Source of the DNA: Maricaulis maris MCS10
GTDB lineage: Bacteria > Pseudomonadota > Alphaproteobacteria > Caulobacterales > Maricaulaceae
Length of the DNA stretch: 64,000 nucleotides
Assembly (NCBI RefSeq): GCF_000014745.1
Contig: NC_008347.1
Location: 2,124,001 to 2,188,000 of the forward strand
Direction: 5' to 3'
Shown: positions 33,605-42,876 of the stretch, piece by piece
Numbering within the stretch: position 1 is the stretch's first letter
Layout: each line of letters opens with the position of its first letter
Notes under the pieces: generated by a model
The model's input: only the letters and a program-made list of their open reading frames with translations
Database searches by the model: none
Told to the model about the DNA's origin: nothing
Program-made: the position numbers and the translations under genes

Positions 33605-34489
33605 ATGGCCATGCGCTTTGAAGGTACAGATCAGTATGTCGCTGATGGAGAACTGAGCGCCGCGGTCAACGCCGCGGTGGCTCTCGAGCGCCCGCTCCTC
33701 GTCAAGGGTGAGCCGGGTACGGGCAAGACAGAGCTGGCCAAGCAGGTCGCCCAGGCGATGGGCATGCCGCTGATAGAATGGCACGTCAAATCAACGACCA
33801 AGGCCCGCCAGGGGCTGTACGAGTATGACGCCGTCGCGCGCCTGCGCGACAGCCAGCTCGGCGATGACCGCGTCCACGACATCAACAACTACATCCGCAA
33901 GGGCAAGCTGTGGGAGGCCTTCGCCGCCCCCGAGCGCTCTGTCCTTCTGATCGACGAGATCGACAAGGCCGATATCGAATTCCCCAACGACCTCCTGCAG
34001 GAGCTCGACCGGATGGAATTCCACGTCTACGAGACCGGCGAGACCATCAAGGCAGCCAATCGGCCGGTCATCATCATCACCTCGAACAATGAAAAAGAAC
34101 TGCCCGACGCCTTCCTGCGCCGCTGCTTCTTCCACTTCATCGCCTTCCCCGACGAAGCGACCATGCGCAAGATCGTCGAGGTCCATTATCCCGGCCTCAA
34201 GGGCCGCCTGCTGTCAGAAGCGCTGACCCTCTTCTACCAGATCCGCGATGTGCCCGGCGTCAAGAAGAAGCCCTCGACCTCGGAACTCCTGGACTGGCTG
34301 AAACTCCTCCTCGTCGAAGATATCGATGCCTCCGTCCTGGCCGAACGCGACCCGCGCAAGCTGATCCCGCCGCTGCACGGTGCCCTGCTGAAAAACGAGC
34401 AGGACGTCATGCTGTTCGAAAAGCTGTCCTTCATGGTGCGGCGTCCGGGTGGGCCGGGTGACGGTCCACGCGGGCCGGGCGCGGCTTAG
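33605..34489 (+). CDS. MoxR-family AAA+ ATPase
   Basis: MoxR ATPases act as chaperones, usually with a VWA protein, to insert cofactors or assemble complexes. The 294-residue protein has Walker A GEPGTGKT (residues 35-42), Walker B VLLIDEIDKAD (about 113-123), sensor 1 VIIITSNNEKELPDAFLRRC and a C-terminal lid. A second ATG at 33611 is equally possible. The usual VWA (CoxE-like) partner is not next to it but at 41701, after about 7 kb of accessory genes. Confidence 0.92.
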   Translation: MAMRFEGTDQYVADGELSAAVNAAVALERPLLVKGEPGTGKTELAKQVAQAMGMPLIEWHVKSTTKARQGLYEYDAVARLRDSQLGDDRVHDINNYIRKGKLWEAFAAPERSVLLIDEIDKADIEFPNDLLQELDRMEFHVYETGETIKAANRPVIIITSNNEKELPDAFLRRCFFHFIAFPDEATMRKIVEVHYPGLKGRLLSEALTLFYQIRDVPGVKKKPSTSELLDWLKLLLVEDIDASVLAERDPRKLIPPLHGALLKNEQDVMLFEKLSFMVRRPGGPGDGPRGPGAA

Positions 34490-34937: not shown

Positions 34938-35603
34938 ATGACTGCTTCTTCCAACACGCCTGCGTTTGATCACCCTGCTCTCAACCCGATGAATCCGGCC
35001 CCCATGCCGGCCGCGGCATCGATGGCCTATCTCAAACCGCTGGTCGCCGATCATCCCAAGGTCTCGGCCGGCGATTACAGCTATATCCATTCCTTCGATG
35101 ACCCGGCCCGTTTTGCCGAGACGCAGCTAAAATACGCCTTTGATTTCATCGAGGACCGTCTGGAAATCGGCAGATTCTGTTCGATCGCGGCGGATGCCAG
35201 CTTTGTGCTCAATGGCGGCAATCATTTTGCCGACCGGCTGTCGAGCTATCCCTTCCCGATCTTCGGTTGCTGGGGTGAGCCCGATCCCGGTCCCTGGCCG
35301 AACAAGGGCGGGATCACGATCGGCCATGATGTGTGGATCGGCTGGGACGCGGTGATCATGCCCGGTGTCACCATTGGCCACGGCGCCATCATCGCCGCCA
35401 AGTCCGTGATCACCCGCGATGTCGCGCCCTACACCATTGTCGGCGGAAATCCCGGACAGGTGATCCGCCAACGCCTGCCCGACGCCGATGTCGAGCGCGT
35501 TCTGGCGCTGGCCTGGTGGGACTGGCCGGTCGAGGCGATCCGCGCGGCGTCAGACGCCTTGATGAAGGCGGATATCGAGGCTCTGGAGCGATTGGCACCC
35601 TGA
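34938..35603 (+). CDS. Vat/CatB-type hexapeptide acetyltransferase
   Basis: This 221-residue left-handed beta-helix protein belongs to the xenobiotic acetyltransferase type: KVSAGDYSYIHSFDDP, LEIGRFCSIAADASFVLNGGNHFADRLSSYPF (shown in part), ITIGHDVWIGWDAVIMPGV, IGHGAIIAAKSVITRDVAPY, IVGGNPGQVIRQR. His in GNHF is the expected catalytic residue. Such enzymes acetylate streptogramins or chloramphenicol, but many chromosomal homologues have other substrates, so resistance cannot be claimed. CGGAG precedes the start. Confidence 0.87.
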   Translation: MTASSNTPAFDHPALNPMNPAPMPAAASMAYLKPLVADHPKVSAGDYSYIHSFDDPARFAETQLKYAFDFIEDRLEIGRFCSIAADASFVLNGGNHFADRLSSYPFPIFGCWGEPDPGPWPNKGGITIGHDVWIGWDAVIMPGVTIGHGAIIAAKSVITRDVAPYTIVGGNPGQVIRQRLPDADVERVLALAWWDWPVEAIRAASDALMKADIEALERLAP

Positions 35604-35646: not shown

Positions 35647-35671
35647 AGAAACAGAAACTGTTTCTGTTTCT
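35647..35671. promoter_or_regulatory. Perfect 25-bp palindrome, candidate operator
   Basis: Arms AGAAACAGAAAC and GTTTCTGTTTCT flank a central T with no mismatch, 98 bp upstream of the beta-helix lipoprotein gene. Each arm is a tandem AGAAAC pair. The length and symmetry fit a TetR-type operator; the nearby TetR gene at 38149 is the natural candidate. Confidence 0.7.
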
Positions 35672-35769
35672 GATTGTATCTGCGCATTGAATGTGAAAAT
35701 TTGCTAGGAGAAGCGATCGGCGAATGCCGAACCAAAAGTCATGGGCGGCGAGACGCCGGGGAGAGCAAG

Positions 35770-37005
35770 ATGAAGACATTCAAGTATCTGATGATCGGGG
35801 CATCCGCGCTGGTTCTGACCGCCTGCGGCAATAGCGACACGTCACGCGACCTCGCTGAGGCCAATGTCGATTATCAGGCGACCCTGATGGAGCAATTGAT
35901 CGATGCCCAGCCGGGTGACGTGATCGAGATCCCGGCAGGCGTGTACAGCTTCGACCGTTCGCTGAGCCTCAATATTGATGGCGTGACGATCCGCGGCGCC
36001 GGCATGGACGAGACCATTCTGAGCTTCCAGGACCAGATCGCCGGAGCAGAAGGCCTGATCGTCACCGCCAATGACTTCACCCTCGAAAACCTCGCCATTG
36101 AAGACACGATCGGTGACGGGCTGAAGGTGAATGGCGGCGAGAACATCATCATCCGCGGCGTCCGCGTCGAGTGGACCAATGGCTATGCCACCGAGAACGG
36201 TGCCTATGGCATCTATCCGGTGCAGACCACCAATGTGCTGGTCGAAGACACGGTTGCGATCGGCGCCTCGGATGCCGGCATCTATGTCGGCCAGTCGCGC
36301 AATGTGATCGTCCGCAACAGCCGGGCCGAATACAATGTCGCCGGCATCGAGATCGAGAACTGCATCGGCGCCGACGTCTACGGCAACACCGCCACCAACA
36401 ATACCGGCGGCATCCTCGTCTTCAACATGCCGAACCTGCCGCAGCCGGGCTATCACACCCGCGTCTACGACAATGACATCTTCGCCAACAATACCGAGAA
36501 TTTCGGCCATGCCGGCACCCCGGTCGCCAGCGTCCCGGCCGGTTCGGGCGTGGTCATCAACTCGAACGACCAGGTCGAGATCTTCAACAACCGGATCTCC
36601 GACAACGACACCGCCAACATCATCATCTCCAGCCTGCACTCGACCGGGTATTCCGATTACTCGGTGCAGACCGATTTCGATCCCTATCCGGAATCGATCT
36701 GGATCCATGACAACACCTATTCCGGTGGCGGCACCTCGCCGGACGGTCTCGACCTGACCGCGCTGAAGATCGCCATGTTCGGTCTCAATGGCGCCCTGCC
36801 GGACGTGTTGTTTGACGGTTTTGTCGACGATGCCAAGCTGGTCGACGGCGCTCTGCCCGACGCCCTGCGGATCTGTGTCAGCGATCCTGTCGACGTACTC
36901 AATGCCGACGGTCCGAATGGCTATGCCTCGCCGAGCGTCGATACCGAAGACTTCCGTTGCAGCCTCGACAGCCTGAGCGCCGTCGAACTCGCCTTCGCCG
37001 ACTAA
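35770..37005 (+). CDS. Parallel beta-helix lipoprotein (two-gene system with dihaem cytochrome)
   Basis: This 411-residue protein has a lipoprotein signal with lipobox LTAC (residues 16-19), then a right-handed beta-helix built of NosD-like turns (VTIRGAGMDETILSFQ, FTLENLAIEDTIGDGLKVNG, NIIIRGVRVEWTNG, NVLVEDTVAIGASDAGIYVG, NVIVRNSRAEYNVAGIEIEN, ADVYGNTATNNTGGILVFN). It matches the family that occurs regularly beside SO2930/HNE_0200-type dihaem cytochromes; the function of the pair is unknown. ATG at 35770 with GGGAGAG upstream is preferred over 35674. It lies 18 nt before the cytochrome gene and downstream of the 25-bp palindrome. Confidence 0.87.
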   Translation: MKTFKYLMIGASALVLTACGNSDTSRDLAEANVDYQATLMEQLIDAQPGDVIEIPAGVYSFDRSLSLNIDGVTIRGAGMDETILSFQDQIAGAEGLIVTANDFTLENLAIEDTIGDGLKVNGGENIIIRGVRVEWTNGYATENGAYGIYPVQTTNVLVEDTVAIGASDAGIYVGQSRNVIVRNSRAEYNVAGIEIENCIGADVYGNTATNNTGGILVFNMPNLPQPGYHTRVYDNDIFANNTENFGHAGTPVASVPAGSGVVINSNDQVEIFNNRISDNDTANIIISSLHSTGYSDYSVQTDFDPYPESIWIHDNTYSGGGTSPDGLDLTALKIAMFGLNGALPDVLFDGFVDDAKLVDGALPDALRICVSDPVDVLNADGPNGYASPSVDTEDFRCSLDSLSAVELAFAD

Positions 37006-37023
37006 GCAATACCGGGATTTGTC

Positions 37024-38148
37024 GTGACCGTGTTTCGTGGACTGATACTGATCGCCGCCGCCGCTCTCGCGGCCTGTTCACCGAACGCACCAACGGCGCA
37101 ATTCCATAGCGAAGACAATCCCCGGCTGCTCTCCGAATGGGGGCAGCTGGGTATTGTCGCCGGCGACCTGCAATTGGCCGACGGGGTCGTGCCCTACGAC
37201 CTCAACACACCGCTCTTCACCGACTATGCGCTGAAGCTCCGGACCATCTGGATGCCAAGCGGCGAAACCGCAGCCTACCGCGAGAATGACACGCTCGACT
37301 TCCCGGTCGGCACCGTCATCACCAAGACTTTCTACTATCCCCTTGCTGACACGCCCGGCCAGGTCACCCGCGGCGATGGCCACAGCCTGACCCGCGCCGA
37401 CGGCAGCCTGGACCTGTCCCGTGTGCAACTGATCGAGACCCGCATCCTGGTTCACCGTGAAGCCGGCTGGGAGGCCCTTCCCTATCGCTGGAATGATGAC
37501 CAGACAGAGGCCGTGCTCCTGCGCTATGGCGACGTCGTGCCGATGACTGTAGCCGAGGCCGATGGCGGCGCTTCGACTTTCAATTATGTCATGCCGGATG
37601 TGAACCAGTGCGCCAGCTGCCATGCCCCGGACTCAAATACCCGCCAGATCGCTCCGATCGGTCCGAAACCGCGCCATCTGAACCGCGACTTCGACTATCC
37701 GGACGGCACCGCAAATCAGCTCGAATATCTGACCGAGGTCGGCTACCTCACCGGCGCGCCCGTGCCTGCCGACGCGCCGCGCAATGCGGACTGGGAAGAC
37801 CTGGAAGCGAGCCTGGAAGCGAGGGCCCGCGCCTATCTCGATGCCAATTGCTCACACTGCCACAGCCCGGTGGGACCGGCCGATACGTCCGGGCTGAACC
37901 TTCAACCGGATATCGCGCACGGCCCGGCACTGGGCATCTGCAAATTGCCGATCGCGGCCGGGTCAGGCACCGGGGACCGTCGGTTCGACATCTTCCCGGG
38001 GCGTCCGGACGAGTCGATCCTGCTGTTCCGCCTCGATAATGTTGAGCCGGACCAGATGATGCCGGAGGTCGGGCGCTCGACCAATCATGTCGAAGGCATC
38101 GAACTGATCCGCGCCTGGATCGAAAGCCTGCCCGGCGATTGCGGCTGA
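37024..38148 (+). CDS. SO2930/HNE_0200-family dihaem c-type cytochrome lipoprotein
   Basis: This 374-residue protein has a lipoprotein signal (LAAC) and two haem c sites, CASCH (about residue 197) and CSHCH (about residue 278). The long N-terminal beta-rich domain (LSEWGQLG, YDLNTPLFTDYALKLR, TVITKTFYYP, ILVHREAGWEALPYRW) and the conserved C-terminal segment (FPGRPDESILLFRLDN, MMPEVGRS) place it in the SO2930 type. It probably transfers electrons at the periplasmic side of a membrane. The start is GTG with GGGA upstream. It is co-transcribed with the beta-helix lipoprotein. Confidence 0.87.
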   Translation: MTVFRGLILIAAAALAACSPNAPTAQFHSEDNPRLLSEWGQLGIVAGDLQLADGVVPYDLNTPLFTDYALKLRTIWMPSGETAAYRENDTLDFPVGTVITKTFYYPLADTPGQVTRGDGHSLTRADGSLDLSRVQLIETRILVHREAGWEALPYRWNDDQTEAVLLRYGDVVPMTVAEADGGASTFNYVMPDVNQCASCHAPDSNTRQIAPIGPKPRHLNRDFDYPDGTANQLEYLTEVGYLTGAPVPADAPRNADWEDLEASLEARARAYLDANCSHCHSPVGPADTSGLNLQPDIAHGPALGICKLPIAAGSGTGDRRFDIFPGRPDESILLFRLDNVEPDQMMPEVGRSTNHVEGIELIRAWIESLPGDCG

Positions 38149-38802
38149 TCAGTCCAGATAGGGCGCCAGATAGCGCTGCAGGGCCATCAGGGTTTCATTG
38201 AAATAGGTCTCGGCCTGCTCCGGTCGGTCACGGGTGGCAAAAATCAACACCTCGGCCGCGCAATAAAACTCGACCGTCAGCCGGGCGACGACTTCCGGGT
38301 CGCCATCATGGAAACCGTCCATGCCCTTGTGCCAGCGATGTGACAGGACGGCCGCCAAACGGAGGTTCCAGCGCTCGCGGACAACCCGCAATTCCGGCGT
38401 CGTCAGGGTCAGCTGGAAGACAGCACCATAGGACGGATTACCGGCGACCAGTTGGCGCAACCCGTTCAGCATGCCAAAAATGCTGATCCGCCAGTCCTGC
38501 TCCTCCGGGTCCTCGAGGATGGTCGAAATGATCGCTTCGGCCTCGAGCATGAACTCGTCGAGAATGGTGCAGTGAAGGGCGTAGATATTCGGGAAATATC
38601 GATAGACCGAACTGACCGGGACACCCGCCTGGGCTGCGACACTTGAGGTCGTAATCGCGTCGGCACCGTCATTTTCGAGCAGATACTTGGTGGCGGCGAC
38701 GATCGTGTTGATTCGTTCCTGCGACCGCTTCTGCCGGGGGGCAGCGCGTCTCCCAAGATCAACATTTTCTGTCGGAGCCCGCTCGTTCACTGTCTGCCTC
38801 AT
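38149..38802 (-). CDS. TetR-family transcriptional regulator
   Basis: This protein of about 217 residues (ATG 38802; the frame is open to 38844) has the TetR helix-turn-helix: RINTIVAATKYLLENDGADA, ITTSSVAAQAGVPVSSVYRYF, with YRYF closing the recognition helix. The ligand domain is of the TetR_C type. It converges on the dihaem cytochrome gene (0-nt gap) and is divergent from a TonB receptor gene, so it probably regulates this locus. Candidate operators are the palindromes at 35647 and 38940. Confidence 0.88.
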   Translation of the reverse strand: MRQTVNERAPTENVDLGRRAAPRQKRSQERINTIVAATKYLLENDGADAITTSSVAAQAGVPVSSVYRYFPNIYALHCTILDEFMLEAEAIISTILEDPEEQDWRISIFGMLNGLRQLVAGNPSYGAVFQLTLTTPELRVVRERWNLRLAAVLSHRWHKGMDGFHDGDPEVVARLTVEFYCAAEVLIFATRDRPEQAETYFNETLMALQRYLAPYLD

Positions 38803-38918
38803 TGATATTGCACCGCAATTTGGCACACCTGCGCCGTTAGGCAAGTGTGACCAATTTGCGTCTCATGGACAGCATAGCGCGTCACGCGCCGTTCGCCGCT
38901 TGAATAACTGAAAAAAAT

Positions 38919-38953
38919 TCTGTTTCGTTTATTGGAATGTCCGATCGGATATA
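38919..38953. promoter_or_regulatory. Intergenic palindrome and CTGTTTC half-site
   Basis: TCCGATCGGA (38940-38949) is a perfect 10-bp palindrome. TTCTGTTTCGTTT (38919-38931) resembles one arm of the 25-bp palindrome at 35647. Both lie in the divergent tetR / TonB-receptor region. Confidence 0.45.
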
Positions 38954-39036
38954 TCAAAGGGGGAGTCCCGGCAGAGCGCGCAAACAAGATGACGCGCCGG
39001 ATCGGGAAATCGGGCCAGTTGCCCAGCGGAGGAACC

Positions 39037-41466
39037 ATGAAACCCAACACGTCAGCCAAGCGCCACAGCTTGCGCTATCTGCTCGCATCGACTGTCGCCT
39101 GTATCGCTGCGGCGCCTGCCCTGGCGCAGAGCGACGAGACGCCGGATGACGTTATTGTCGTCACAGCACAGCAGCGTGCCCAGTCGTCGCAGGATGTGCC
39201 GATCTCGTTGCAGGTCCTGGACAGCGAATTCATCGACGCGGTCGCGGCTGACGATATGGGTGACCTGGAAGCCTTCGTGCCGGGTCTCGATGTCTCCAAC
39301 GGCAGCCCGACGCAGCCGCGCTATTCGATCCGCGGCATCACCACCAGCGATTTCGGCGTCGGCACCGATCCGGCGGTCGGCATCTATGTTGACGGGATCT
39401 ATGCAGCGCGCTCGGGCGCCTCGCTGCTGGCTTTCAACGATATCGAGCGCATCGAGGTCCTGAAAGGACCGCAGGGCACCCTCTTCGGCCGCAACTCGGC
39501 TGCTGGCGCGGTCTCGATCATCACCCGCGAACCCAGCGACGAGCTGGAAGGGCGTGTCGCCGTGCGCATCGGCAGCCATAACCGCATGCGCACGGAGGCG
39601 ATGCTCAACCTGCCGATCACGGACACGCTCGCCATTCGCGCCAACTTCCTGAGCAACAAGGCTGATGGCTGGCTGACCGACGCGGTGACCGGTGAAGACT
39701 ATCGCCGCGAGGACTCCTCCGCCGACCGTTTCACCGTGCGCTGGAATGCGACACCGTCGACCGAGATCCTGCTTCGCCACAGCCGGGACACGATCGACCA
39801 GGACGCGCGTCCGGCAATCGGCATTGTCGAGATTCCCGCCTTCCCGGGCACGCCGCCGCTTCCCGTCGACACCACGGCATTCCTCGACCCGTTCAACGCA
39901 CCTGTCCGCAATGATGTCGTGTTCAACCGCGAAGCCCGCAATCTCGCCGAAACGACACTCACCGTCCGTCAGGACATCGGCGACATGACGCTGACCTCGC
40001 TGACCTCCTATCGCGAATTCGACACGATGAATCGCGAGGACGAGGACGGCACCAACCGGATCGACACCTATTTCGACACCAATAATGTCGAGGACAATGA
40101 AGCCTTCTATCAGGAATTCCGCCTGGCCGGCACGACCGGCACGGTCGATTGGCTGGTCGGCGCGAGTTATTACGACGAGACCGCGATCCAGGCGTCCGAA
40201 ACCTTCACCTTCACCGATACCGTCAACACGGTGCTCGGCAATGTCGGCGCCGGCACGCCCTTCACCGATCTGGAATACGGCCTCCTGGTCCCGTTTGGCC
40301 TGCCGTTCAGCATGCTCGGTCACTCCTGGCAGGAGACAATGAGCAATCAGGGCGAGTTCACCGCCCGCGCGGTCTATGCCGACATGATCTGGTCAGCCAC
40401 CGACCGCCTTAATGTGTCAGTCGGCCTGCGCTATACCGAGGACGAAAAGAGCTTCCAGTGGATCAATGGCGGTCGGCAGGCTGACAGTCTCGACCAGACG
40501 CTCGCCGCTCTCGACGGGGCCGGCATCCTGGCGCTGGCCGGTGCCTCCCCGGCAGACTTCCTGTTCGATTTCGTCTTTGACCTCGCCCCGCTCGCCGGCG
40601 TGGCCTGCGATAATGGCGTCAATGTTGCCGAAGGCGTCGCCTGCGTGATGGAAGACAGTTGGAACAATCTCAGCCCGCGCGTCGTCGTCGACTATCAGCT
40701 GACCGACAATGTCATGATCTATGGCTCGTTCAGTGAAGGCTACAAGGCCGGCGGCTACAACTCGGTCGAGGTCGGTTCGCGCTTCGAGAACGAGACCGTG
40801 ACCAGCTGGGAATTCGGCTTCAAGTCAGACTTCCTGAACCCCGATCTCGTCTTCAACATGTCGGCCTTCTCCTATGTCTACGAGGACAAGCAGTCGATCC
40901 GCCTCGTCGTTCCGACCGGTGGCGGGGTGCCGCAATACCTGGTGCAGACCTCGGATGACGAAGCCATCGGTGTCGATATCGAACTGGATTGGCAGGCGTC
41001 TGACGCATTGCGCCTGCGCGGCAATGCCCAGTGGCTGGACTCCACCCACAAGCGCCGCGTTGACAGCAATGGCGCCGACCTGGCCGGTGAGCCGACCGGC
41101 GAGCCGTACTGGAATGTCGCCTTCGGCGCCGACTATGTCATTGATCTGGACGGCGGCAGCGATCTGACCCTGCAGGCCAATCATGCATATCGCGGCGAGA
41201 GCCGGTGCAACAGCCAGTCCGTCCTTCAGGGCACCTGTGGCGGCTACACCGCCTTTGCCACCGGCGAAGCCCGCAACCGCACCGATCTGCGGGCCCGTTG
41301 GACGGCACCGAACGGCGATCTGACCGTCAGCGCCTTCGTCAACAACGTCTTCGACAACCAGTATGTCGGCGGCGTCAACAACATCACGGCGAGTACGCTG
41401 GGTACAGCGTTCGCGTCCATCTCGGCGCCGCGGGTTTGGGGGTTGGAGATCGGATACGACTTCTAG
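39037..41466 (+). CDS. TonB-dependent receptor
   Basis: An outer-membrane receptor of 809 residues. It has a signal peptide (ending AAPALA), a TonB-box-like DDVIVVTAQQR and a plug domain (QDVPISLQVLDSEFIDAV, GDLEAFVPGLDVSN, RIEVLKGPQGTLFGRNSAAGA), then a 22-strand barrel ending RVWGLEIGYDF. The barrel segment MIYGSFSEGYKAGGYNS is typical of sphingomonad/Hyphomonas receptors of unknown ligand. ATG 39037 follows GGAGGAACC. It is divergent from tetR. Confidence 0.93.
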   Translation: MKPNTSAKRHSLRYLLASTVACIAAAPALAQSDETPDDVIVVTAQQRAQSSQDVPISLQVLDSEFIDAVAADDMGDLEAFVPGLDVSNGSPTQPRYSIRGITTSDFGVGTDPAVGIYVDGIYAARSGASLLAFNDIERIEVLKGPQGTLFGRNSAAGAVSIITREPSDELEGRVAVRIGSHNRMRTEAMLNLPITDTLAIRANFLSNKADGWLTDAVTGEDYRREDSSADRFTVRWNATPSTEILLRHSRDTIDQDARPAIGIVEIPAFPGTPPLPVDTTAFLDPFNAPVRNDVVFNREARNLAETTLTVRQDIGDMTLTSLTSYREFDTMNREDEDGTNRIDTYFDTNNVEDNEAFYQEFRLAGTTGTVDWLVGASYYDETAIQASETFTFTDTVNTVLGNVGAGTPFTDLEYGLLVPFGLPFSMLGHSWQETMSNQGEFTARAVYADMIWSATDRLNVSVGLRYTEDEKSFQWINGGRQADSLDQTLAALDGAGILALAGASPADFLFDFVFDLAPLAGVACDNGVNVAEGVACVMEDSWNNLSPRVVVDYQLTDNVMIYGSFSEGYKAGGYNSVEVGSRFENETVTSWEFGFKSDFLNPDLVFNMSAFSYVYEDKQSIRLVVPTGGGVPQYLVQTSDDEAIGVDIELDWQASDALRLRGNAQWLDSTHKRRVDSNGADLAGEPTGEPYWNVAFGADYVIDLDGGSDLTLQANHAYRGESRCNSQSVLQGTCGGYTAFATGEARNRTDLRARWTAPNGDLTVSAFVNNVFDNQYVGGVNNITASTLGTAFASISAPRVWGLEIGYDF

Positions 41467-41700: not shown

Positions 41701-42876
41701 ATGCTGCATCACTTCTTCACAGAACTCCGCGCCGCCAAGATCCCCGTGACCACGCGGGAATACCTGACCTTGCTGGAAGCCCTCGACAAGGGCGTCATCG
41801 AGCCGGAAATCAAGCATTTCTACTCGGTCAGCCGCGCCGCGCTGGTGAAGGACGAGAAGGATTTCGACAAGTTCGACATGGTCTTCGGCCACGTCTTCAA
41901 GGGCGTGGAAATGCTCTCCCAGATGTTCGAGGACAAGGACATCCCGGACGAATGGCTGAAGGCGATGATGAAACGCATGCTGACGGAAGAGGAAATGGCC
42001 GAGCTCAAGGCCCTGCCCTTTGACGAGCTGATGGAAACCCTCAAGAAGCGCCTCGAGGAGCAGGAAAAGCGCCATGAGGGCGGCAATAAATGGATCGGCA
42101 CCGGCGGCACCTCGCCCTTCGGGCATTCCGGCTTTAACCCGTCCGGCGTGCGTATTGGCGGAGAAAGCCAGAACAAGCGCGCCGCCAAGGTCTGGGAACA
42201 GCGCCGCTACAAGGATCTTGATGGCGAGCGCGAACTGGGCACGCGCAATCTGAAAGTCGCCCTGCGCCGCCTGCGCAAATTTGCCCGCGATGGTGCCCGC
42301 GAGGAGCTGGATCTGGGCGAGACCATCGACGCCACCGCCAAGCAGGGCTGGCTCGATGTGGTCATGCGACCGGAACGCCGCAACGCCATCAAGGTGCTGG
42401 CCCTGTTCGATGTTGGCGGCTCAATGGATCCGCATATCCGCCTGTGCGAGGAGCTCTTCTCCGCCGCGCGCTCGACCTTCAAGAATCTGGAATACTATTA
42501 CTTCCACAACTGCCCCTATGAGGGCGTGTGGCGGTCAAATCTGCGCCGCCGCACCGAGACCGTGCCGACCCTGGATGTGATGCACAAATACCCGGCCGAC
42601 TGGAAGGTCATCCTGGTCGGTGATGCCGCCATGGCGCCTTATGAGATCACCCATGATGGCGGCTCGGTCGAGCACTGGAATGAAGAGGCCGGCGCGGTCT
42701 GGCTGCAACGCATTGCCGACACCTGGCCGCACCTGATCTGGATCAATCCGACACCGGAAAAATGGTGGGAGCACTCCTACTCCACCCGCCTCGTCCAGGA
42801 CATTATCGGCGCCGACCGCATGTTCCCGCTGACGCTTGAAGGCGTCGATGCGGCGATGAAGGAATTGGCGCGCTAG
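41701..42876 (+). CDS. VWA domain CoxE-like protein
   Basis: The 391-residue protein has an N-terminal CoxE-type helical region (HHFFTELRAAKIPVTTREYL, LLEALDKGVIEPEIKHFY) and a C-terminal VWA domain. The MIDAS motif is DVGGSM (variant of DxSxS), followed by LEYYYFHNCPYEGVWRS, with DWKVILVGDAAMAPYEI later. It is the standard partner of the MoxR ATPase found here at 33605, with which it probably forms a metal- or cofactor-insertion chaperone. The two genes are normally adjacent; here about 7 kb separates them. Confidence 0.9.
   Translation: MLHHFFTELRAAKIPVTTREYLTLLEALDKGVIEPEIKHFYSVSRAALVKDEKDFDKFDMVFGHVFKGVEMLSQMFEDKDIPDEWLKAMMKRMLTEEEMAELKALPFDELMETLKKRLEEQEKRHEGGNKWIGTGGTSPFGHSGFNPSGVRIGGESQNKRAAKVWEQRRYKDLDGERELGTRNLKVALRRLRKFARDGAREELDLGETIDATAKQGWLDVVMRPERRNAIKVLALFDVGGSMDPHIRLCEELFSAARSTFKNLEYYYFHNCPYEGVWRSNLRRRTETVPTLDVMHKYPADWKVILVGDAAMAPYEITHDGGSVEHWNEEAGAVWLQRIADTWPHLIWINPTPEKWWEHSYSTRLVQDIIGADRMFPLTLEGVDAAMKELAR

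Follow-up and report, generated by a model that had tools for sequence, protein, structure and literature searches.

In the genome of Maricaulis maris MCS10, a single contig of 3,368,780 bases, we analysed a stretch of 64,000 base pairs (bp; bases 2124001–2188000), hereafter the window, whose coordinates are used throughout. Its interval 35647–41466 combines a perfect 25-bp palindrome, a lipoprotein of the family TIGR03805, a dihaem cytochrome of the family TIGR03806, a tetR gene on the opposite strand and a divergently oriented gene for a TonB-dependent receptor. We consider it reasonably likely that this module is a catabolic island under a single repressor, devoted to the uptake and periplasmic oxidation of a compound. 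Judged from their conservation, the TetR regulator, the receptor and the lipoprotein–cytochrome pair very probably form one regulon, and the genes linked to the pair in relatives make import plus oxidation, on balance, its probable purpose. Comparison with other genomes reveals conserved gene linkage, two common operator-like sites nearly restricted to the module, and the co-occurrence of an aldehyde dehydrogenase gene in some lineages. An earlier sequence-only reading had named the same set of genes, which matches to TIGR and Pfam profiles bear out. It had also proposed that one regulator controls both the receptor and the pair in an uptake and oxidation system; the former proposal is supported by the joint conservation of TetR, receptor and operator-like element, and the latter by the linkage, in other lineages, of genes for aldehyde dehydrogenase and AraC, as far as sequence can tell. 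The features of the module are as follows.

35647–35671, unstranded: operator-like site 1 ahead of the lipoprotein gene, a 25-bp palindrome without mismatch that includes AAACAGAA-N5-TTCTGTTT
35770–37005, plus strand: parallel beta-helix lipoprotein, 411 amino acids (TIGR03805 match, AlphaFold model)
37024–38148, plus strand: dihaem c-type cytochrome lipoprotein of the SO2930 family, 374 amino acids (TIGR03806 match)
37171–37641, plus strand: putative P460-like domain segment, cytochrome residues 50–206, with the first CxxCH at 196–200 and invariant Arg73, Lys101 and Glu138
38149–38802, minus strand: TetR-family regulator, 217 amino acids from ATG 38802 (longest open frame from 38844; PF00440)
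38906–38926, unstranded: operator-like site 2, AACTGAAAAAAATTCTGTTTC, in the tetR/receptor gap, matching the conserved element
39037–41466, plus strand: TonB-dependent receptor, 809 amino acids from ATG 39037 (longest open frame from 38932; PF07715, PF00593)

The likely start codons of tetR (ATG 38802, minus strand) and of the receptor gene (ATG 39037) were read from the sequence, as were lipobox-like cysteines at the N-termini of the lipoprotein (LTAC) and the cytochrome (LAAC), whose genes lie on the same strand, the second beginning 18 bp beyond the first. The lipoprotein scores 464.8 bits against a TIGR03805 cut-off of 141.5, over model positions 1–314 of 314, and the cytochrome 381.3 bits against a curated TIGR03806 cut-off of 313.3. 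The regulator matches TetR_N (PF00440) with 32.5 bits (Pfam cut-off 24), and both the plug (PF07715, 71.4 bits) and the beta-barrel (PF00593, 96.1 bits) of the receptor exceed their cut-offs.

Linkage of the regulator and the receptor to the pair

A profile of ten TetR proteins, searched at an E-value of 1e-25 against 299 genomes of the order, retrieves this TetR family from 18 genomes, and in 17 of them it is encoded beside the pair. In these 17 genomes tetR lies next to the cytochrome gene, behind an aldehyde dehydrogenase gene (loci L070 and L161–L163, with the gene order lipoprotein–cytochrome–aldehyde dehydrogenase), or at the head of a run of receptor, lipoprotein and cytochrome genes on one strand (L166 and L167). 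The exception, genome G165, is without a TIGR03806 match, and its tetR lies near an aldehyde dehydrogenase gene. A TetR relative interrupted by a stop was seen near an aldehyde dehydrogenase gene in locus L168 (9088–11330), from a genome without a TIGR03806 match. The receptor clade, searched in the same 299 genomes with a profile of twelve receptors at an E-value of 1e-180, is found in 14, in 13 of which the receptor stands beside TetR and the pair, the surroundings of the fourteenth being cut by a contig end. The neighbourhood check that the sequence-only reading had called for thus yields 17 of 18 for TetR and 13 of 13 for clade receptors with visible surroundings. The receptor of L035 is a fragment only, and in L036 the large gene that diverges from tetR encodes a DEAD-box helicase, no receptor being present.

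Surroundings were inspected in 40 of the 196 genomes matching TIGR03806, selected by choice, in nine more regions mostly chosen for their TetR matches, and in 80 named loci (from which set A4, the window plus 46, and set A5, the window plus 38, were drawn). The share of TetR in these locus sets is not a natural frequency; the two 299-genome searches do provide one. Duplicate loci, seven for the neighbour count and eight for the tree, association and operator counts, were dropped beforehand. The in-house gene caller gave some antisense calls, and the linkage counts for TetR, receptor and associated genes therefore rest on tblastn.

The pair itself is far more widespread. A profile search finds TIGR03806 matches in 196 of the 299 genomes (189 exceeding the cut-off), and the cytochrome family also occurs in loci assigned by name to Gammaproteobacteria, Betaproteobacteria, Acidobacteria and other groups. 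Lipoprotein and cytochrome genes stand together in all 41 loci first examined, the lipoprotein frame being split in L069, and among the 101 loci where the gene caller retained the cytochrome the lipoprotein is encoded on the same strand within two genes of it in 99, at a median position of −1. The earlier notion that the two families travel as a pair holds in this count. Literature searches on the names TIGR03805 and TIGR03806 found no paper on the function of the pair in the library searched; SO_2930 appears among Shewanella outer-membrane or extracellular cytochromes in the network table of one paper. The remaining neighbours of the pair vary widely between loci. In six loci (L088 and five more) the pair lies near an opposite-strand gene which, in the member scanned (L088, Marinicaulis flavus), encodes a squalene-hopene cyclase, and in some of the TetR-less loci of Maricaulis and Hyphobacterium (L077, L082) a sodium/bile-acid symporter-type gene and an amidohydrolase gene recur beside the pair. 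A search of plasmids gave four records, with one good match with annotated neighbours, from Novosphingobium, where receptor genes and an aldehyde dehydrogenase gene lie near the pair. The pair in the window resembles other members of the two families in passing both curated cut-offs and in the adjacency of its genes, and differs in having a dedicated TetR, two operator-like sites and a receptor of its own.

On a tree of the lipoprotein from 119 loci, a quick tree with several long branches, the TetR label needs at least five changes and the receptor label 12; the association of TetR and receptor with the pair therefore appears, from this tree, to have arisen, moved or been lost several times.

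Operator-like sites accompanying tetR

Between the end of site 1, AGAAACAGAAACTGTTTCTGTTTCT at 35647–35671, and the start codon of the lipoprotein gene (ATG 35770) lie 98 bp, exactly as the sequence-only reading had it. The window contains no other perfect 12-1-12 palindrome, and in the whole genome AGAAAC-N13-GTTTCT is matched at a single place. The description of this site as a mismatch-free 25-bp operator fits the copy in the window, which is indeed a perfect palindrome, but does not extend to relatives, where the conserved element is the 21-bp AAACAGAA-N5-TTCTGTTT and the flawless 25-bp symmetry is not conserved. The CTGTTTC that had been pointed out in the tetR/receptor gap is real, and is part of the second operator-like site.

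A check on the conservation of the palindrome had also been suggested. Of the 18 TetR loci, 15 have an element scoring at least 12 of 16 upstream of the lipoprotein gene, as against none of the 102 loci that lack TetR (maximum there 11), although the comparison is partly circular, the final consensus having been derived from the same TetR loci, several of them close relatives. The three loci lacking a site on the lipoprotein side are L166 and L167, where the lipoprotein gene overlaps the receptor gene, and L092 from Kordiimonas, with a divergent form. In 13 of the 18 TetR loci the tetR gap contains a second copy, again with a score of 12 or more; it is lost in L035, L040 and L042, that is in three of the four loci without an intact clade receptor (a remnant or none). 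An early motif, GAAA-N4-TTCTGTTTC, had been obtained from the upstream regions of ten loci before being replaced by the symmetric consensus, and it matches at 12 of 13 positions in all seven TetR-plus-pair loci fetched later (L161–L167), before the lipoprotein gene or in the tetR gap, with none of 100 shuffles as good.

When the degenerate element was scanned with at most one mismatch through 17 TetR genomes, both strands being counted, 32 of 36 rows fell on the module, as did all 22 mismatch-free rows; three genomes gave no match, and a reversed control pattern gave seven rows. In the genome of M. maris itself the scan found no third site beyond 35648–35670 and 38906–38926. Upstream of the lipoprotein gene of L097 lies a variant palindrome, AAAAAGTGAAATTATTTCATATTAT, which resembles the form in L092 and suggests a sister operator type.

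Two other identities of the palindrome were considered and rejected. PsrA, a TetR repressor responding to long-chain fatty acids, likewise has a palindromic operator containing GAAAC/GTTTC, given as C/GAAAC-N4-GTTTG/C in PMC5722320, but the conserved half-site here is TTCTGTTT with a spacer of N5, so that neither half-site nor spacing agrees; similarity of operators would in any case not show that the regulators are related. A terminator is disfavoured by a stem with only three G-C pairs and by the fact that the element tracks tetR and not the upstream gene.

The lipoprotein, the cytochrome and a possible relation to P460

The AlphaFold model of the lipoprotein (predicted local distance difference test score, pLDDT, 92) is a right-handed beta-helix, and members of set A5 share 44–88% identity with the lipoprotein of the window. 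The best-ranked solved folds among the best 50 Foldseek matches are AlgE4, PL6 lyases and inulin fructotransferases, with template-modelling (TM) scores of 0.18 to 0.58; we take these carbohydrate-active matches of the model as indicating fold only, not function. Matches to NosD (PF05048) and Beta_helix are present in 39 of 39 A5 members.

In the cytochrome, the two CxxCH motifs (residues 196–200 and 276–280) are kept in every one of the 138 sequences aligned, a set that contains near-duplicates. Methionine is a usual sixth haem ligand, and an invariant Met346 is available to haem 2. Haem 1 has no obvious sixth ligand: the conserved histidines other than CxxCH ligands are His278, which is part of the second CxxCH, and His355, whose conservation is less strict. 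The domain around haem 1 is made mostly of strands in the AlphaFold model.

Profile comparison weakly suggests that this domain is related to cytochrome P460. With hhalign, the N-terminal haem domain (111 sequences) aligned with 18 P460 domains (set A7, 18 of 23 P460 hits from genomes of the phylum) at 81%, with an E-value of 1.2e-5 and a score of 36.9; the best of 100 column-shuffled controls reached 2.8% (19.5), reversed profiles stayed below 1%, and the C-terminal domain of the cytochrome reached 10.8% (23.7). The 27 short-form members taken separately gave 88% and the 84 long-form members 76%, and the comparison with A6 gave 68.5%. The matched block covers residues 69–106, with FPVGTVITK(101) placed over FPDGSVLAK. 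Lys101, invariant in 138 of 138 sequences, thereby aligns with the cross-linking lysine of P460, which by counting on the alignments from a P460-profile search of solved structures is residue 106 of 6amg, a leucine standing there in 6w6n; Lys106 is described as the residue cross-linked to the haem, and 6w6n as the K106L/A131E variant, in PMC11928373. The likewise invariant Arg73 aligns with the arginine of ELRAV, and a count of 26 residues from the lysine towards the N-terminus would put it at the position of Arg44 in NeP460, a residue linked to cross-link formation in the same source. Glu138, also invariant, falls by eye on the position of Ala131 but about three residues further on in a low-threshold hhalign alignment, and may or may not fill the place of the distal carboxylate.

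The direct match of PF16694 (P460) to the protein of the window, at 21.1 bits, stays below the gathering cut-off of 27; among A4 members, nine of 47 match at E≤0.01, the best at 1.8e-5. Against such a relation, Foldseek with the whole AlphaFold model (pLDDT 88) returned no match at E 0.001 or better and no P460 chain among the best 50 of 415 rows, and because of this last result we refrain from classing the protein among the P460 cytochromes, although it may work like one. Likenesses to cytochrome P460/c′-beta are thus the profile match of the haem 1 domain and the position of Lys101, while the protein differs in its additional cytochrome c domain and lipobox, and no nitrogen-metabolism gene was found among the annotated neighbours of the pair. 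P460-like chemistry in this cytochrome is, on such grounds, a tentative suggestion that we rate as rather doubtful.

Proposed import and oxidation, and competing explanations

Genes linked to the pair in other lineages indicate what the module might do. Receptor loci number 35, 14 with TetR and 21 without, and an AraC gene lies within 7 kilobases (kb) in 15 of the 21 without TetR versus 0 of the 14 with it; three of these AraC proteins were scanned and have an Arabinose_bd domain, and the one scanned in NCBIfam is nearest to QhpR, below cut-off. An aldehyde dehydrogenase gene lies within 7 kb in 14 of the 35 receptor loci, which are clustered by lineage, as against 5 of 87 others (7 of 87 with a Novosphingobium-type query), and a FadL/TodX gene within the same distance in 5 of 35 as against 0 of 87. 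In Dyella and Rhodanobacter the order is lipoprotein–cytochrome–receptor–aldehyde dehydrogenase, followed in five cases by a FadL/TodX-type gene. The AraC-linked loci of Dyella, Rhodanobacter, Luteimonas and relatives share with the window the same pair and a related receptor (45–49% identity in three Xanthomonadales rows); they differ in having an AraC with Arabinose_bd in place of TetR, together with an aldehyde dehydrogenase and sometimes FadL. Taken as genomic context, these linked genes support the view that a hydrophobic organic compound is imported and oxidized, probably by way of an aldehyde.

The scheme we infer, which takes in repression, a ligand, a direction of transport, an oxidation and a division of labour between the haems, would run as follows. 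TetR would bind two similar operators, one in the divergent tetR/receptor gap and one before the lipoprotein–cytochrome operon, and would release both when its ligand, either substrate or product, appears. Through the receptor the compound, which is probably organic and hydrophobic, would then enter the periplasm, where the two lipid-anchored partners would oxidize it. Haem 1, in the P460-like domain with no obvious sixth ligand, would be the reactive site, and haem 2, held by its CxxCH and Met346, would hand electrons to the respiratory chain, while the beta-helix lipoprotein would hold the substrate or aid maturation of the haem site. The linked aldehyde dehydrogenase of relatives would then take over the product, which is probably an aldehyde.

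Besides the lineage clustering of the receptor loci and the partial circularity of the operator count, several observations weigh against this proposal. The pair occurs without TetR in 101 of 119 tree rows and without a receptor of this clade in 85 of 119; because the pair is so much commoner (196 of 299 genomes, and those 101 rows), the full module is, judged from gene content, a specialized setting of a general pair. Receptor and gap site are not strictly coupled, L164 and L165 having a receptor and no clear gap site, and L036 retaining its gap site beside the helicase gene; these three loci speak against a simple rule, and the operator of L092 is, as said, divergent in form. The TetR-type relatives closest to the window's own module lack a linked aldehyde dehydrogenase gene, and the scan of the M. 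maris genome with at most one mismatch found no further operator pointing to an aldehyde dehydrogenase. The scanned aldehyde dehydrogenases come closest to MdlD, a benzaldehyde dehydrogenase, yet score only 401 and 312 bits where its cut-off is 550, so that aromatic substrates are only hinted at.

Other explanations should be considered alongside a one-repressor catabolic island. The module could serve the acquisition of iron, haem or cobalamin, the receptor importing a metal chelate, with the dihaem cytochrome acting as a metal-releasing periplasmic reductase and the lipoprotein as a binding partner. The receptor's best NCBIfam matches are in fact siderophore and haem receptors, below the curated cut-offs, and its best solved relatives by sequence are the receptors for pesticin, pseudopaline, ferrioxamine and haem; there is no iron gene, however, among the linked genes that recur in receptor loci, which encode aldehyde dehydrogenase, AraC and FadL/TodX, and the operator-like element tracks tetR (a search for Fur boxes was not made). 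We regard metal acquisition as quite improbable. Somewhat less so, if still unlikely, is that the lipoprotein is a NosD-like factor for cofactor maturation, the mature cytochrome alone being the enzyme or an electron carrier and TetR sensing a stress, not a nutrient. The NosD and Beta_helix matches throughout A5 would suit such a role, as would the nearly constant place of the lipoprotein gene beside that of the cytochrome (99 of 101 loci); on the other hand, the best-ranked solved folds are carbohydrate-active beta-helices with no NosD among the best 50 rows, no ABC transporter was found among the part of the neighbours scanned with Pfam, and the receptor and the aldehyde dehydrogenase would be left unexplained.

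The neighbourhood could, finally, be accidental, the palindrome being a terminator or an unrelated site and tetR and the receptor gene having landed by chance beside a widespread pair. The palindrome does score as a terminator-like hairpin, the pair occurs in many different neighbourhoods, and the locus lies between two genes of variable spacing in relatives. Yet 17 of 18 TetR and 13 of 14 receptor matches lie beside the pair, and the element accompanies tetR across families with different upstream genes; this explanation is already disfavoured and appears very improbable to us. The two flanking genes encode a MoxR-like AAA protein (33605–34489) and a CoxE-like protein (41701–42876) and stand 7.2 kb apart in the window. 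In 12 relatives with the module absent or elsewhere they are 46 bp to 3.7 kb apart (ten genomes) or on different contigs (two), and genomes G088, G098 and G188 have the TetR–pair unit at other places. Within the genus, then, the unit has come to occupy more than one site. The MoxR/CoxE gap resembles a site of gene acquisition. It also houses, at 34938–35603, a hexapeptide acetyltransferase gene nearest to the Vat family, below cut-off (198 versus 300 bits), which is found in the same gap in six genomes.

As a more general and rather unlikely extension of the one-repressor proposal, TIGR03806 proteins might be widespread two-haem enzymes with a P460-like haem 1 pocket, possibly cross-linked through Lys101, and an electron exit at haem 2, acting on receptor-imported organic compounds with the beta-helix protein as platform or maturase, and gated by the substrate through TetR or AraC. 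In this they would differ from the P460 proteins dealt with in PMC11928373, as their substrates would be organic. If the relation to P460 is true, a haem chemistry familiar from hydroxylamine oxidation may be more widely used. Loci such as that of M. maris, where the pair comes with two operator-like sites and with a repressor and a receptor dedicated to it, offer a starting point: the ligand of TetR and the substrate of the receptor should reveal the target of the pair.

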